From: Terriglobia bacterium
GTDB taxonomy: Bacteria; Acidobacteriota; Terriglobia; Terriglobales; Acidobacteriaceae
NCBI GenBank assembly: GCA_020073215.1
Contig: JAIQFO010000002.1
Location: 62,001-126,000 of the forward strand
DNA length: 64,000 bases
Direction: 5' to 3'
Of this stretch, positions 34,387 through 56,869 are shown piece after piece. Both the position numbers and the translations under genes were made by a program. Each line of letters opens with the position of its first letter. The stretch's first letter is position 1. The notes below the pieces were generated by a model. The model searched no databases. It was not told where the DNA came from and saw only the letters and a program-made list of their open reading frames with translations.

Positions 34387-37300
34387 TCAGTGGAAATCGT
34401 GCGATCGAACATTGACGTCGCCGATCTTCAGGGGACGCACCACATCCGCCTTCACCGAGACCACATTTTCCTGATTTTGCAGCTTACCCTCGACCAACAG
34501 GAATTTGCCGTAGGTCACCACTCGGCGGTACTGCTCGTAGACAGCGGGAGTAACGATTGCGTTGGAGATTCCGGTCTCATCCTCCAGGCTCAGGAACACG
34601 AATCCCTTGGCTGTTCCCGGCCGCTGGCGGGCGATCACGCATCCTGCGATCCTGGTCTTTCGTCCGTCTTCGAACTTCTCTAGATCGCGCGCACAAACGA
34701 TGCCCATGCGGGATAGGGCATCCCGGTGATAGGCCATGGGATGCGGTCCGGTGGTGACGCCCGTGCCGTGGAAGTCGGCCGCCAGCCGTTCTTGCACGGT
34801 CATGGCGGCGAGTGGCGAGTCTTCATCTTGTTCGCGCAAAGCCTGCAATAGCGGCCCCGTGGGACGGCCCGCGTATTCCACCTGCCAGAGTGCATCGCGG
34901 CGATGGATGTTTTCGCCGAGCGAATTCAGCGCGCCGATCTTCGCCAGCATCGTGAGATCGTTCTTGTGCAACTCGGGCACGCGCAGCACGAGATCGTGAA
35001 TGGAATCGAAAGGGCGACTAACACGTGCCCGAACCAGTGCTTCTCCCGGCGCTTGCTGCAATCCCCGCGCATAGAGCAACCCGAGCCGCAGCGCGAAACG
35101 ATGGGCCTCACCGCTTTCCGGCTCAAGCGTGCAGAACCAATCGGAGCGCTGCACGTCGATCGGCTTCACTCTCAGTCCATGACGCTGCGCGTCTTTCACC
35201 AGCGTGGCAGGATTGTAAAAACCCATTGGCTGATTGTTCAGCATGGCCGCCGTAAACGCCGCCAAGTAATGGCATTTGAGATAGGCGCTGGCATACGCAA
35301 TCAGCGCAAAGCTGGCCGCGTGCGATTCGGGAAACCCATACAACGCGAAGGACGCGATCGACTGAACAATCTGCTCTTGCGCATCGGAGCGAATGCCGTT
35401 GGCAGTCATTCCCTGGCGCAGCTTGATCTCCAGCTCTCGCATTCTTGCCTGCGAACGGCGCATGCCCATGGCTCGCCGCAGTTCTTCCGCCTGCCCTCCA
35501 CTGAAGTTGGCGACGATCATCGACATGCGAATCAACTGTTCCTGGAAGAGCGGCACTCCGAGCGTTCGTTTCAGCACCGGCTCCAGCAGTGGATGCGCAT
35601 ACGTTACCGCTTCCTTCCCCTGACGCCGCTTCATATAAGGGTTCATCATCTTGCCTACGATCGGCCCAGGACGAATGATGGCCACCTGCACCACCAAGTC
35701 GTAAAAATGCACCGGACGATTGCGCGGCAAGGCTGACATCTGCGCGCGGCTCTCCACCTGGAACATGCCCACGGTGTCGGCCCGTTGCAGCGTGCGATAG
35801 ACTTCCGGATCGTCTTGCGGAAGCTGAGCGAGGTCGAGTGGCTCTTTGTAATGTCTCGGGACCAGATCGAGGCAATCTTCAAGCACCGCCATCATCCCGA
35901 GCCCGAGCAGATCGACCTTGATGATCTTCATGTCGGCGCAATCTTCCTTGTCCCACTGAATGACAGTGCGCCCCGGCATGGACGCCGGTTCGATGGGAAC
36001 GACGGCATTGAGCTGACCCGCGCAAATGACCATGCCACCGGAATGTTGCCCGAGGTGGCGCGGAATATCCTGCATGCGCTCGCAGATCTCCAGGTACTTG
36101 GCGATGCGGCGATGCTGCGTGTCGAAACCTGCGGTGCGGAAACTAGCGTCCAAGGTATCGGTTGGGCCCTTCCATTCCCATGCGCCCACCAGCTTTGTGA
36201 GGCGGCCCAACGTCTCCGCATCGAAACCGAGCGCCTTGCCCGCCTCGCGCGCAGCGGACCTTCCTCGATAGGTGATGACATTGGCGGTCATCGCCGCTCC
36301 CAGTTCGCCATAGCGCTGGTACACATATTGAATGGCTCGTTCACGACGGTCTCCGCTGGGCAGATCGAGATCGATATCCGGCCATTCGCCACGTTCGGCC
36401 GAGAGGAAGCGTTCGAAGAGCAGTTCCATGCCGACCGGATCAATCGCCGTGATGCCGAGTGCATAGCACACTACGCTGTTGGCCGCCGATCCGCGTCCCT
36501 GGACGAGAATGCCTTCGCGGCGGCAGAACTGCACGATGTCCCAAACGATCAGGAAATAACCCGCGAGTTCCAGTTGTCCAATTAGAGACAGTTCGCGACG
36601 AGCTTGCTGCCGGGCTTTCTCGAAAAGTTTCGGGTCGCGCTTTGGCAGATACCGTTCGCGCACGCCTTCTTCCACACGTTTCTCCAGGAACGCTTGCATG
36701 CTGCCGCCATCGGGCACGGGATAGCTTGGGAAACGGTATCCCAGATCGCTCATCTTGTAGGTCAGGCGCGCGGAAAGCTCGGTGGTGTTAGTAACTGCCT
36801 CGGGAAGATCGCGGAACAACTCCTGCATCTCACGGGGAGAGCGCAGGTGGCGTTCGGCATTCAGAGAGAGCAAACGGCCTGCAGTGTCGAGCGTCAAGTG
36901 GTGTCGGATGCTGGTTAGCACGTCCATGACTTCACGCTCGTAGGTTTTGGCGTAGTTGACACCATTGGTGGCGACGAGTGGTAACTGCAAAGCCCGCGCA
37001 ATTCGGACCGCTGCCTGATTGCGGTGTTCCTCCGCGCGGTCGAAGTGGCGCTGCAATTCGACATAAACATTTTGACGGCCGAACAGATTCACAAGTCTTT
37101 CGACTTCGCGCCGGGCTTCGTCAAATCCGCCACGCGCGAGAGCGGATGCCAATGGGCCCTCATCGCCTCCTGTCAGGCAGATCAAACCCCTGGCGTGTTC
37201 TTCGATGTCGGCTAGGGTTGCGGCACCTTCGGCTTTCTTGCCTTCCCGCAACTTGTAACGAGTGATCAAGCGGCAGAGATTCTGATATCCCGTGGCTGAT

Positions 37301-37590
37301 TCGACGAGCACAGGAAAGCGCACCGGCTCAACCGGCACGCGATGGGGCACCCACTCGGGGGGACGCACCCGCTCGCCGACATCACGGACGGCGATTTCGG
37401 CTCCAATGTGGGCGCGTGTACCGGCTTTTTCTGCCGTGATGTGAAAGCGCGACGCTCCGTACAGGCCGTTGCGGTCGAGCAGCGCCATCGCGGGCATCTG
37501 AAGTTCGGCGCAGCGCGCCATCAGCATTTCCGGCAGCGAAGCGCCTTCCAGAAAGCTGAAAGCTGAACGTGCATGGAGTTCCACGTACAT
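34387..37590 (-). CDS. dnaE2: error-prone DNA polymerase III alpha subunit (DnaE2/ImuC)
   Basis: 1067 residues, the usual length for DnaE2. An N-terminal PHP domain (MYVELHARSAFSFLEGAS) is followed by the polymerase core with PDIDLDLPSGDR, holding catalytic Asp residues, and a C-terminal OB domain. It starts nine bases after the imuB stop, as third gene of the imuA-imuB-dnaE2 mutasome operon that carries out damage-induced mutagenic lesion bypass (established in Caulobacter and Mycobacterium). Confidence 0.95.
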   Translation of the reverse strand: MYVELHARSAFSFLEGASLPEMLMARCAELQMPAMALLDRNGLYGASRFHITAEKAGTRAHIGAEIAVRDVGERVRPPEWVPHRVPVEPVRFPVLVESATGYQNLCRLITRYKLREGKKAEGAATLADIEEHARGLICLTGGDEGPLASALARGGFDEARREVERLVNLFGRQNVYVELQRHFDRAEEHRNQAAVRIARALQLPLVATNGVNYAKTYEREVMDVLTSIRHHLTLDTAGRLLSLNAERHLRSPREMQELFRDLPEAVTNTTELSARLTYKMSDLGYRFPSYPVPDGGSMQAFLEKRVEEGVRERYLPKRDPKLFEKARQQARRELSLIGQLELAGYFLIVWDIVQFCRREGILVQGRGSAANSVVCYALGITAIDPVGMELLFERFLSAERGEWPDIDLDLPSGDRRERAIQYVYQRYGELGAAMTANVITYRGRSAAREAGKALGFDAETLGRLTKLVGAWEWKGPTDTLDASFRTAGFDTQHRRIAKYLEICERMQDIPRHLGQHSGGMVICAGQLNAVVPIEPASMPGRTVIQWDKEDCADMKIIKVDLLGLGMMAVLEDCLDLVPRHYKEPLDLAQLPQDDPEVYRTLQRADTVGMFQVESRAQMSALPRNRPVHFYDLVVQVAIIRPGPIVGKMMNPYMKRRQGKEAVTYAHPLLEPVLKRTLGVPLFQEQLIRMSMIVANFSGGQAEELRRAMGMRRSQARMRELEIKLRQGMTANGIRSDAQEQIVQSIASFALYGFPESHAASFALIAYASAYLKCHYLAAFTAAMLNNQPMGFYNPATLVKDAQRHGLRVKPIDVQRSDWFCTLEPESGEAHRFALRLGLLYARGLQQAPGEALVRARVSRPFDSIHDLVLRVPELHKNDLTMLAKIGALNSLGENIHRRDALWQVEYAGRPTGPLLQALREQDEDSPLAAMTVQERLAADFHGTGVTTGPHPMAYHRDALSRMGIVCARDLEKFEDGRKTRIAGCVIARQRPGTAKGFVFLSLEDETGISNAIVTPAVYEQYRRVVTYGKFLLVEGKLQNQENVVSVKADVVRPLKIGDVNVRSHDFH

Positions 37591-37599
37591 TGCGAGATC

Positions 37600-39264
37600 T
37601 CAGTCGTAGATTCCGATCAGGTACCAGCAGTTCGAGGCCGGATCGTGAGCGACACGGCAGCATTGCTTGTCCTCCCCGCCCAGCGCCACATCCCATTCTT
37701 CCCGAGACCAATCCGGATAGGTCCACCATGCCCCACTGGCCTTCCAGGGACCCGAGTCTTTCCGCACAACAAATTTTTGACCTTCCAGAAAGAACGCGGC
37801 CAAACGCGAAGTAGAGCAGGTTTCATAAATAGTTTTTGGGTAGGGCACGGCTTTAGCCGTGCCATTCAGGGCTTGAAAAAATGCGGGCTTTAGCCCCTGA
37901 GGGACGTGCCTTCCGAGCTGAAATGCATTTGTGAAACCAGCTTTATGCATTTCCACGCGAATCGCGCGGGGCGGCCGCAAGATACGCAGTACCGATGGGC
38001 GAGGCTGAGTAACAGAGGTCCGCGAAGTGTGATTCGTGCCGGGGACGAAAAGCGCCATTCGGAATGCTTCCGGGTGATGGCTGTCCAACAATTCTGCGGC
38101 GCCGACGCGGTCCTCCCCGACCAGCTTGCGCAGCCGTGCCAGCAGGATTTCCAATCGTCCAGCTTCTGGTGTTTGCGGCGTGAACAATCCGTGCTGCACA
38201 GTCTGCGAGCGTGCCGGTTGGGCCACGAGGTGCAAGGCAATCACGGCGGCCTCCGGCGGATGCAACTCCAGATCAAGTTGGACCAGCTTCAGCAGCGTCT
38301 GATAGCTCCACTCCGGCAGCGCGGGGCGCACGATGCGCCGGTGTTCTCTCGGTACATCTCTGCGTATTGGGCCATCCAGTACAAGCCTCGTCTCCACTTG
38401 CGCAATCGCCAGAGCGCGTGCTGCAGCGCGCCTGACAATCTGCTCGAGCATTCGGCTGATCAAAAACAAAAGTGGCTCGAGCAGATCAACCGGATGCTCT
38501 AGCTCCGTGCTTTCGCATAGAACGGCATCTGCCGCCGGCTCAACCGGAGTTAGTAAGTGATCGCAGTCGCCGCGCGAAAGAGCTTGCAGCTGACGCCCAA
38601 CCTCCCCAACCCGTGCAATCAGCGCCTTCTGTGGCAAGCCTGCCAGTTGGCCAAGCGTCCGAATTCCCCAGGAAGCGAATGTTCCCCGCTGTTCCGGTTC
38701 GAGTTCGAGCACGGTGAGCGGAAGCGGGGCCAAGACGTCGGCCTCGTAGCCAGTGGGAACGATCGTGATTCCAGGAAAGCCGCGTGCCGCCACCACCGCG
38801 GCATAAACATTGCTGGAAGTGGCGGCGCTGGTTTCAAATCCCGCAGCCTCAGCGGTTCGTCGCAGCGCCACGGCTATCTGCTTTGGTGTTCCGAAGAGCC
38901 GTTCGCAAGCAGCAATGTCCAGGATGAGCGTGGCACCGGAAATGCTTTCCGCCGGAGATGCCAACACCTCGACCCTTGGCGAGAACCGCTCCGCACATTG
39001 CATCAGGACGTGAAAAGCCGAATCTTCCTGAGCTCTCACTCTTGAGCGCAGTGAAATGCCGTCGAAGGATTTTGCCTGTACCCGGCTCATTCCCAACCGA
39101 AGCCCGAGCCTGCGTGCTGGGCCGTTCAGCGAGAAGACGGTTTCGAGCGGCGGGTCGCCATCGAGAACGGCTATGGCATGTCCGCGCAGTTCAGGATAAA
39201 CCCGCAGCTCCGCCTGCACCGGAAAATCGCGCACGTGCAGACAGAGATACAACGGTCGAGACAT
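37600..39264 (-). CDS. imuB: ImuB Y-family polymerase-like protein with in-frame repeat insertion
   Basis: 554 residues. The N-terminal region has the Y-family fold (LYLCLHVRDFPVQAELRV), but the catalytic acidic residues of active Y-family polymerases are not conserved, as is usual for ImuB, which acts as an adaptor to the beta clamp and DnaE2. The C-terminus has the ImuB hallmark GPWKASGAWWTYPDWSREEWDVAL...WYLIGIYD. About residues 439-483 are encoded entirely by a 135-bp palindromic repeat (37816-37950), inserted in frame after RPPRAIRVE. It starts three bases after imuA. Confidence 0.93.
   Translation of the reverse strand: MSRPLYLCLHVRDFPVQAELRVYPELRGHAIAVLDGDPPLETVFSLNGPARRLGLRLGMSRVQAKSFDGISLRSRVRAQEDSAFHVLMQCAERFSPRVEVLASPAESISGATLILDIAACERLFGTPKQIAVALRRTAEAAGFETSAATSSNVYAAVVAARGFPGITIVPTGYEADVLAPLPLTVLELEPEQRGTFASWGIRTLGQLAGLPQKALIARVGEVGRQLQALSRGDCDHLLTPVEPAADAVLCESTELEHPVDLLEPLLFLISRMLEQIVRRAAARALAIAQVETRLVLDGPIRRDVPREHRRIVRPALPEWSYQTLLKLVQLDLELHPPEAAVIALHLVAQPARSQTVQHGLFTPQTPEAGRLEILLARLRKLVGEDRVGAAELLDSHHPEAFRMALFVPGTNHTSRTSVTQPRPSVLRILRPPRAIRVEMHKAGFTNAFQLGRHVPQGLKPAFFQALNGTAKAVPYPKTIYETCSTSRLAAFFLEGQKFVVRKDSGPWKASGAWWTYPDWSREEWDVALGGEDKQCCRVAHDPASNCWYLIGIYD
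37816..37950. mobile_element. 135-bp palindromic MITE/REP-like element inside imuB
   Basis: Terminal inverted repeats (GGTTTCATAAA on the left, GTGAAACCAG on the right) enclose a perfect stem GGCACGGCT-TT-AGCCGTGCC and a second hairpin GCGGGCTTTAGCCC. A close copy without coding function lies at 56736-56869. The element is 45 codons long without stop in the imuB frame, so the gene reads through. Confidence 0.85.
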
Positions 39265-39267
39265 GGC

Positions 39268-40419
39268 TCATCGCGCCCATAGAGTGGTGCCGTTCCAGAA
39301 AGTTTCGGCAACCGACACTGGTTTCTTTTTGCAGAGATAAAAAGACTCTTGTGCGCTTCCACGCTTGCGGTCGGCGCTAACCTGATAGCAGAACCCCGTC
39401 AAAAGCGGCAAGCCGATCGAAGCTTCATTGGCGTATTGCCATCGTTCATCCGCTTCCAGGCAACGTAGAACTACTGAAGCGCAACTGCTGGCACAGGCCG
39501 CTTGCGTCACGAGCAGGAGAATGGCTTGCGACTTCTCTGTCTGCAGCCGAAAGCGATACCACGATGCCAAAGGCACACGACGCGCCTGTTCCGGGCTGAC
39601 GTCGCCCATATCGATCACGATGGCGCGAAAGCCTCCCGTGTTGAGCAACAGGTCTGTCGCTCGCAGACCTTGGTCCAGACGATCCCAGACTTCTTTTGCC
39701 GCTGAACGGCGCTCGGACTTCTGGAATGGCCGGAGTTTGGGATCGGGTGATCTCTCGGTTGCGATGTTCTTCGGCTGTGCCACAGGTTCTGTGAACTGCG
39801 CAGTTTGACGATCCACATTTTGATAGCTCATCGGGAACCGGGCAACCCGTCTCCCGCGAACGGATTCGGCACAGCGAGGCGAGTAATCAAACAGAGGAAT
39901 TTCAGCGTTCTCAGGATTGTCCTTCGGCTGAAACAATTTTTCTACGGCGTGCTCTATGCCGCGCATTTCCGTACGCGGATGCGAACCTCCGCGGCCATAC
40001 TTCTCGTCTTGCATTGAGCGCGTTCTCACTTCCAGAGGCCGCTTGTCGGTGACGGACAGACGCGGTATTTCCTCCGAGCTTCCGGCACGCACCCAGAGCA
40101 GGCGGCCGAGATCGACTCCCATCGCGGCGGCGGAGAGCGGATCCAAGGCATCCGAAACGTCCACGTAGGCCCCGGCCGCCCCTTGCCCGGTGATGCCGGC
40201 GAGAACGGAAAGGACGAGGGTGCTTCTGCCGGAGCACACAGGACCTATGATTTCCGTCACGCCGCCGAGCGGCAACCCGCCCCCCAGCATGGTGTCCACC
40301 TCGGCGATGCCGGTGGGCAGCAATTCGGGGGCGCTGCGCGGGAGCACGGAGAGGGCCGCGGGAATCCGCATTGCCAATACGGACTCGATCTGCTCTCGGA
40401 TGGCCGCTGCGGATGGCAT
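39268..40419 (-). CDS. imuA: ImuA, RecA-like mutasome protein
   Basis: 383 residues from the ATG at 40419. The N-terminal third carries a RecA-like nucleotide fold, LPTGIAEVDTMLGGGLPLGGVTEI followed by a degenerate Walker A GPVCSGRST. A middle insertion (about 155-235) is low in similarity. The C-terminal part has FRAIVIDMGDVSPEQ and YRFRLQTEKSQAILLLVTQA, as expected for RecA-type folds. First gene of the imuA-imuB-dnaE2 operon. Confidence 0.88.
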   Translation of the reverse strand: MPSAAAIREQIESVLAMRIPAALSVLPRSAPELLPTGIAEVDTMLGGGLPLGGVTEIIGPVCSGRSTLVLSVLAGITGQGAAGAYVDVSDALDPLSAAAMGVDLGRLLWVRAGSSEEIPRLSVTDKRPLEVRTRSMQDEKYGRGGSHPRTEMRGIEHAVEKLFQPKDNPENAEIPLFDYSPRCAESVRGRRVARFPMSYQNVDRQTAQFTEPVAQPKNIATERSPDPKLRPFQKSERRSAAKEVWDRLDQGLRATDLLLNTGGFRAIVIDMGDVSPEQARRVPLASWYRFRLQTEKSQAILLLVTQAACASSCASVVLRCLEADERWQYANEASIGLPLLTGFCYQVSADRKRGSAQESFYLCKKKPVSVAETFWNGTTLWAR

Positions 40420-40424
40420 GGTAT

Positions 40425-40476
40425 ATTCGCCTTTTGTTCGCCTATTTAGGCTAAGACTCGCCCGGCGATTTGTCAA
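40425..40476 (-). promoter_or_regulatory. imuA promoter with direct-repeat operator
   Basis: On the minus strand TTGACA (40476-40471), a 17-base spacer and TAGCCT (40453-40448) make a good promoter. Downstream, the plus-strand text TTCGCC-TTTTG-TTCGCC gives ATTC-N7-GTTC at 40425-40439, one base from the GTTC-N7-GTTC LexA box known in Alphaproteobacteria. It would cover the transcript start, which suits SOS repression. That LexA binds it here is inference. Confidence 0.5.
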
Positions 40477-40536
40477 CCTACCTACGGGGACGGGTGGGCG
40501 GCTAGCAGCCTGTGGTGAAACTCCAACACCCAAAAC

Positions 40537-56650: not shown

Positions 56651-56735
56651 CAGCTGGTGTCGTGTCCCACAAATTGCTGCCATAACTTAAGCTTCTCATC
56701 CTCGCCCTGAGCTGGCCGAAGGGGAAGGACCTATA

Positions 56736-56869
56736 GCTGGTTTCGTAAATGGCTTTTGGGAAGGGCACGGCTTCAGCCGTGCCGCCCAGGCCAATACACA
56801 CGCGGGCTTTAGCCCATGAGGGATGTGCCTTCCGGGTTAAAAGACATCTATGAAACCAGTTCGATGCAT
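56736..56869. mobile_element. palindromic MITE/REP-like element, intergenic copy
   Basis: Second copy of the element in imuB (37816-37950). It starts GCTGGTTTCGTAAAT, contains the stem GGCACGGCT-TC-AGCCGTGCC and GCGGGCTTTAGCCC, and ends TATGAAACCAGTTCGATGCA. Just before it (56695-56732) is a degenerate CCTGAGC..GAAGGACCT element. These fill the 313-base gap between livF and the aminotransferase gene; I see no gene there. Confidence 0.85.

Follow-up and report, generated by a model that had tools for sequence, protein, structure and literature searches.

The locus studied here raises the question of how a palindromic repeat came to be read as part of a conserved protein, and whether the protein makes any use of it. 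The repeat lies in imuB of an Acidobacteriaceae bacterium, within a stretch of 64,000 nucleotides that we call the window. A sequence-only reading of the window had described it as exapted in frame, and had proposed to align ImuB with the orthologs of relatives, to count the copies genome-wide and to look for target-site duplications. These comparisons are reported here for the home genome, its genus and a sample of the phylum.

The element in the window

The host gene stands between an imuA-like and a dnaE2-like gene on the same strand. The trio at 34387-40533 corresponds to the cassette named imuA-imuB-dnaE2. The features concerned are the following.

34387-37590, minus strand: dnaE2-like gene, downstream of imuB
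37600-39264, minus strand: imuB, 554 codons, intact, Y-family-like, with a Pfam IMS match
37812-37813, no strand: left flanking TA, putative target duplication
37814-37943, plus strand: palindromic element, imuB copy, 130 bp; reads (K/R)AGFTNAFQLGRHVPQGLKPAFFQALNGTAKAVPYPKTIYETCS in antisense orientation to imuB
37814-37830, plus strand: left terminal inverted repeat GAGCAGGTTTCATAAAT, imperfect
37844-37863, plus strand: internal inverted repeat GGCACGGCTTTAGCCGTGCC; other copies have nested palindromes in its loop
37885-37896, plus strand: second internal inverted repeat GGGCTTTAGCCC
37927-37943, minus strand: right terminal inverted repeat, reverse complement AAGCTGGTTTCACAAAT
37944-37945, no strand: right flanking TA, putative target duplication
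39268-40533, minus strand: imuA-like gene (RecA-like), upstream of imuB
56734-56862, plus strand: second copy of the element, 129 bp, intergenic, with TA on one side and GA on the other

An element is indeed present inside imuB, with limits at 37814-37943 and a length of 130 bp instead of the 37816-37950 and 135 bp first given. Its ends resemble GARCTGGTTTCATAAATGG and are flanked by TA. The close intergenic copy, formerly placed at 56736-56869, was found again a few bases away, after the end of an ABC-transporter-ATPase-like frame and ahead of the following one; its net length is not divisible by three. Two stretches of about 134 bases from the window copies aligned with 104 identical bases. 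Fold energies of both copies were compared with 200 dinucleotide shuffles on each strand. The plus strand of the imuB copy gave a z of −3.8, equalled by none of the 200 shuffles, whereas the minus strand, which is that of the imuB mRNA, folded less distinctly (z −1.8, equalled by 7 of 200). For the second copy z was −4.3 and −4.1 on its two strands. Rfam returned no match up to E 1 for positions 37500-38300, nor did Pfam or NCBIfam up to E 1 for the 44-residue consensus peptide of the element.

The imuB frame runs through the element with no stop and no frameshift, as had been noticed, and the element encodes residues 441-484 of the 554 of ImuB. The position proposed earlier, in the linker between the polymerase-like core and the C-terminal domain, was slightly off: in the ortholog alignment the element stands behind the conserved RPP motif, where the conserved C-terminal segment begins, and outside the long variable linker. 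Single-sequence structure prediction of ImuB was uninformative (mean pLDDT 37).

Filled and empty imuB orthologs

ImuB orthologs were searched in 24 genomes of the genus, three of which gave weak or partial matches alone. The element was absent from all 19 gap-free orthologs aligned. The closest usable one, that of genome G018, is 60% identical overall; the remaining 18 are far more distant, at 31 to 40%. Both flanks are colinear with G018, where imuB is 132 bp shorter at the element site, and the window protein reads RVEM-HKAGF...ETCSTS-RLAAF against RVEM-ESS-RIVTL in G018. The ortholog comparison shows the element to have been inserted into imuB, adding, as judged from the alignment, 132 bp or 44 codons with the frame kept. 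The added peptide noted earlier thus stands, at 44 residues and not about 45 (135 bp). The net insertion corresponds to the 130 bp of the element plus two bases. The empty site of G018 reads TT and not TA, so a TA duplication at imuB is not provable. Orthologs carrying the segment in genomes that lack the repeat family were sought in the genus and none was found.

The nearest genome, G002, has no bearing on presence or absence of the element because a two-base assembly gap falls exactly at its imuB site, with about 30 to 45 bp of flank missing on each side. Downstream of the insert, ImuB of the home genome and of G002 is conserved (dN 0.013, dS 0.52, 33 codons). ImuB with the insert probably remains functional.

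The home assembly is a draft of 111 contigs, and repeats of this kind do break assemblies; a contig of G002 (L100), for instance, has a two-base gap inside a copy of the element. A repeat-driven misjoin that put the element into imuB would nevertheless have to account for the colinear flanks, the kept frame and the TA on both sides, as well as for the in-frame cases in other genes and other assemblies described below. We regard such an artefact as very unlikely.

Other repeats were seen in ImuB elsewhere in the genus. The proteins of G008 (L051) and G007 (L053) carry a different dispersed repeat, HPERSRLIREANQPEESKDLY, in frame in the variable linker, and that of G006 (L042) carries a third, a CAGTTGCCAG-type palindrome, in frame in a later loop. 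Both of these repeats also have DNA matches at other loci among those examined. Judged from these alignments, three distinct repeats have entered ImuB, each in other species.

A dispersed family of 130-bp palindromes

The home genome contains at least 42 matches to the element, a lower bound with 40 of 93 candidates scored. DNA searches matched 22 of the 24 genomes of the genus and peptide searches 16 of the 24; in a sample of the phylum the peptide matched 9 of 396 genomes, eight of the nine in the home family. Phage and plasmid collections gave no match to the element.

For the description of the family we used the 38 best preserved copies among the matches listed for the home genome and the genus, each aligned over 112 or more bases of the query. 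For 35 of these the two ends could be located, and 26 of the 35 measure exactly 130 bp. The net insertion, most commonly 132 bp, is divisible by three in 28 of the 35. A preference for multiples of three beyond the 130-bp class was considered and rejected, as two of the nine copies of other lengths give a net length divisible by three, no more than expected by chance. One antisense frame is open in 28 of the 35 copies, and each of the other five in none or one. In this open frame the two bases of the flanking TA fall on codon positions 3 and 1. The imuB frame was kept for two reasons: elements of the commonest length add a net 132 bp, and one of the six frames is free of stops.

The element ends are of two types, which tend to match within a copy. 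Between the two ends of a copy, 3 to 10 of the 10 terminal bases agree, with at least 8 in 20 of 28 copies. The stems are conserved; covariation is weak (2 of 28 pairs). The proposed check on target-site duplications had a mixed outcome: TA stands on the left in 28, on the right in 25 and on both sides in 22 of the 35 copies, but the empty imuB of G018 does not have it.

Thirty loci were fetched of the 42 home-genome matches. In three of these an open frame with at least 40 residues on each side crosses the element, namely in ImuB, in an FG-GAP/ASPIC-UnbV protein (UnbV protein hereafter) and in one unidentified frame; most of the examined home-genome copies are therefore not inside intact frames. 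A dispersed, hairpin-forming palindrome found mostly outside intact genes at these 30 loci would also suit a REP/REPIN-type element moved by an IS200-like RAYT. Its length of 130 bp, its long matched terminal inverted repeats and its TA flanks speak for a TA-targeted MITE instead, and we consider the REP/REPIN assignment improbable.

Some copies have themselves received other repeats. Nested palindromes were seen in the hairpin loops of the element, at GGCACGGCTT^CAGCC and GGGCTTTA^GCCC, one type with ends like CACAGSYTGCGGAAAAACTC and another with GTGTGTGCGTGAGAACT. They occur at L012, L028, L079, L083, L087, L099 and L101, and in frame at L163.

The exact hairpin GGCACGGCTTCAGCCGTGCC was also found in 13 IMG/VR viral contigs (L262-L274). 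In one of them, L274, a core match at 993-1058 lies in frame inside a frame of 934 residues.

In-frame insertions in other proteins

Besides ImuB orthologs, the ImuB search hit the inserted peptide in long frames that belong to other genes. The host proteins, with the genomes concerned, are listed below.

UvrA, G023: in-frame interior insertion; element absent in all 19 further orthologs that cover the site (omitting two truncated rows and two paralogs)
BirA, G018: in-frame insertion between the DNA-binding and ligase parts; absent in all 23 further orthologs that cover the site
Agmatine deiminase, G012: in-frame interior insertion; absent in all 22 further orthologs that cover the site
UnbV protein, G000, G001 and G020: in-frame interior insertion; 12 of 16 rows covering the site without the element, three with it, G021 doubtful (three rows not reaching the site omitted)
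Penicillin acylase, G018, G011, G023, G000 and G002: in-frame insertion; in G000 with a further palindrome nested in frame, in G002 as a variant

Several matches were kept out of the interior insertions. At L063, L066, L071 and L106 the element possibly lies ahead of the start codon. At L077, L080, L104, L105, L109, L110, L111, L112, L113, L116 and L117, and in the shorter frames, the frame is doubtful, short or probably not a gene. Also set aside were L024, a 356-residue frame of no assigned identity, L108, an HTH-like protein of another genus (G107), and the viral contig L274.

The comparison shows one and the same antisense frame to be read, on the predicted translations, inside several unrelated proteins, between conserved blocks in the cases examined. 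The earlier suggestion that the repeat can create protein sequence is borne out by this recurrence. The inserts of ImuB, UvrA, BirA and the deiminase were each found in one genome alone. According to PDB matches, those of UvrA and the deiminase map to a short connection in a solved relative. The acylase insert maps just before Ser-Asn-Asn-Trp, whose Ser is the first residue of the beta chain. In known acylases this region is a spacer that is excised during maturation.

The open frame in many intergenic copies is the one observation that would suit the reverse history, in which the segment is an ancient part of ImuB and the dispersed copies derive from imuB. That history would require many parallel losses, with the segment in no other aligned ortholog, and it would leave the copies with inverted ends and TA flanks of their own and a place in unrelated genes. 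We hold it to be extremely improbable.

The acylase spacer holds other repeats as well. G020, G009 and G003 share one, which is visible as an inverted repeat in G020; a further one is found in G001, G006 and G023 and is also nested in other copies of the element. Across the species of the genus at least three kinds of inverted repeat were seen in this spacer, in frame in every row read (including L154, L155 and L162).

Selection on the inserted peptide

In the reading of true exaptation, the peptide would give ImuB or the other hosts a selected function, for example as a flexible interaction arm. In favour of it, the UnbV insert is common to G000, G020 and G001, in frame and with an identical truncation at one end, and its dN/dS is as low as 0.12 between G020 and G001. 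For the other two carrier pairs we obtained 0.42 and 0.8, and in all three the insert (26 codons) exceeds its flanks, which lie at about 0.06 to 0.17. On the tree the carriers do not form one clade (three changes with G021 counted as a carrier); the well-supported branches alone allow one origin. G021, a genome with no detectable copies, has an insert-like stretch at the UnbV site that resembled a fossil of the element, but against codon shuffles its alignment gave no clear advantage (P 0.08 and 0.04).

A codon-position signal is absent from the family. In the 28 copies with a length of 130 bp, divergence from the consensus is about the same at the three codon positions (0.111, 0.126 and 0.119 for positions 1, 2 and 3), and the 135 synonymous and 291 replacement changes are close to the approximately 122 and 304 expected without selection on the peptide. 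Scarcity of stops was tried as a further signal: the coding frame has 2 stops against about 12 simulated, but a second frame has 2 against 8 to 9. With one of the two models a third frame was poor in stops as well. Since, moreover, a star tree was assumed in the simulation, this signal was not relied on.

No selection for the inserted peptide was thus detected, either by codon position in the 28 copies or by dN/dS in the UnbV carriers, and four of the host proteins each have the insert in a single genome. From these patterns of change the peptide looks tolerated, not refined. The word exapted, used in the sequence-only reading, is not supported, and a selected function appears improbable to us; tolerated insertion is the best reading.

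A candidate mechanism

Taken together, the element inserted in frame into imuB is most probably one copy of a non-autonomous, MITE-like palindromic family of Acidobacteriaceae. It would have been placed there by a transposase acting in trans and tolerated, with no selected function detected. The TA flanks and inverted ends point to a TA-targeting transposase supplied in trans. It would insert the element at TA, selection would purge most of the copies that land in genes, and the surviving genic copies would be those in the single open orientation and phase, at sites that tolerate some 30 to 45 extra residues. The mobility suggested earlier is deduced from the TA flanks, the inverted ends and the presence or absence of the element among species. 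Among 17 DDE_3 loci in six genomes we found no transposase with element-like ends, and several of the loci had other TA-flanked inverted ends. Paired-end scans of the loci examined for longer relatives gave composites and unconvincing pairs alone.

A bolder version is tentative and, on balance, unlikely. Here the family would be frame-safe: a net length that is a multiple of three and a sole open frame would persist through copy lineages that pass through protein genes, and disposable segments such as the acylase spacer and the ImuB loops would be safe harbours that collect palindrome families and yield new protein sequence.

Relation to known coding palindromes

The phenomenon itself is already known from Rickettsia, where palindromic elements (RPE; Ogata et al. 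2000, 2002, via reviews) are described in frame in many genes (PMC10969869, PMC2229807, in the parts consulted). For one Rickettsia enzyme, the consulted part of PMC2229807 reports that the insert is translated and the host protein active. As described in the same portions of the two sources, RPE are dispersed palindromic repeats of about 105-150 bp with inverted ends, intergenic as well as in frame in conserved genes, with a recognisable peptide. The present family is, correspondingly, a many-copy dispersed palindrome, most commonly of 130 bp, found in frame in several unrelated proteins with empty orthologs. We class it as a new family of RPE-like coding palindromes rather than as RPE: the likeness is one of description, with no relation of sequence claimed, the phylum is another one and the TA flanks are regular in the acidobacterial element. 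What is distinctive with respect to RPE, as far as the consulted parts describe them, is the invasion of ImuB by three repeats across species, the nesting of palindromes and the accumulation of several repeat families in the acylase spacer.

Other systems resemble the family in part, again according to the sections of the sources consulted. ERIC/RU-1 and the 107-bp Correia/NEMIS elements share the MITE-like size, the terminal TA and open frames fused to other frames; they belong to other bacteria, and their sequences appear different by eye, unaligned (PMC2229807). Coxiella QMITE1 is a MITE family that feeds annotated reading frames, but with 300-400 bp and with gene-end overlaps or whole small frames, not interior insertions (PMC5896051). 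The coding palindromes of Nematomorpha mitochondria also lie within coding genes; these are perfect, mitochondrial inverted repeats with both arms coding, and no dispersed bacterial element (PMC6649704). In the openly licensed literature, seen mostly as listings and beginnings of abstracts, we found no paper on the element or on in-frame palindromic repeats in Acidobacteria.

In-frame mobile palindromes are best known from Rickettsia, whose reduced genomes let odd insertions be explained away. The acidobacterial cases come from assemblies of about 3 to 6 Mb and concern genes for DNA repair, biotin transfer and other functions, and a single genus offers both filled and empty orthologs. They thus form a comparative system for studying how proteins come to acquire an additional 30 to 45 residues, and the acylase spacer lends itself naturally to testing whether insertions persist in protein sequence that is disposable. 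This wider picture, with several hosts, several palindrome families and possibly disposable landing segments, is more interesting than the imuB case alone.

Further observations on the cassette

The ImuB proteins of G000, G002 and G018 are 60-90% alike and strongly unlike the other orthologs of the genus (31-40%), as if these three genomes carried a separate imuAB-dnaE2 lineage. In G017 (L077), a copy of the element at 2756-2885 lies shortly upstream of imuB, towards the end of a 382-codon frame, and is read there in an unusual frame; the 382-codon frame may be imuA.
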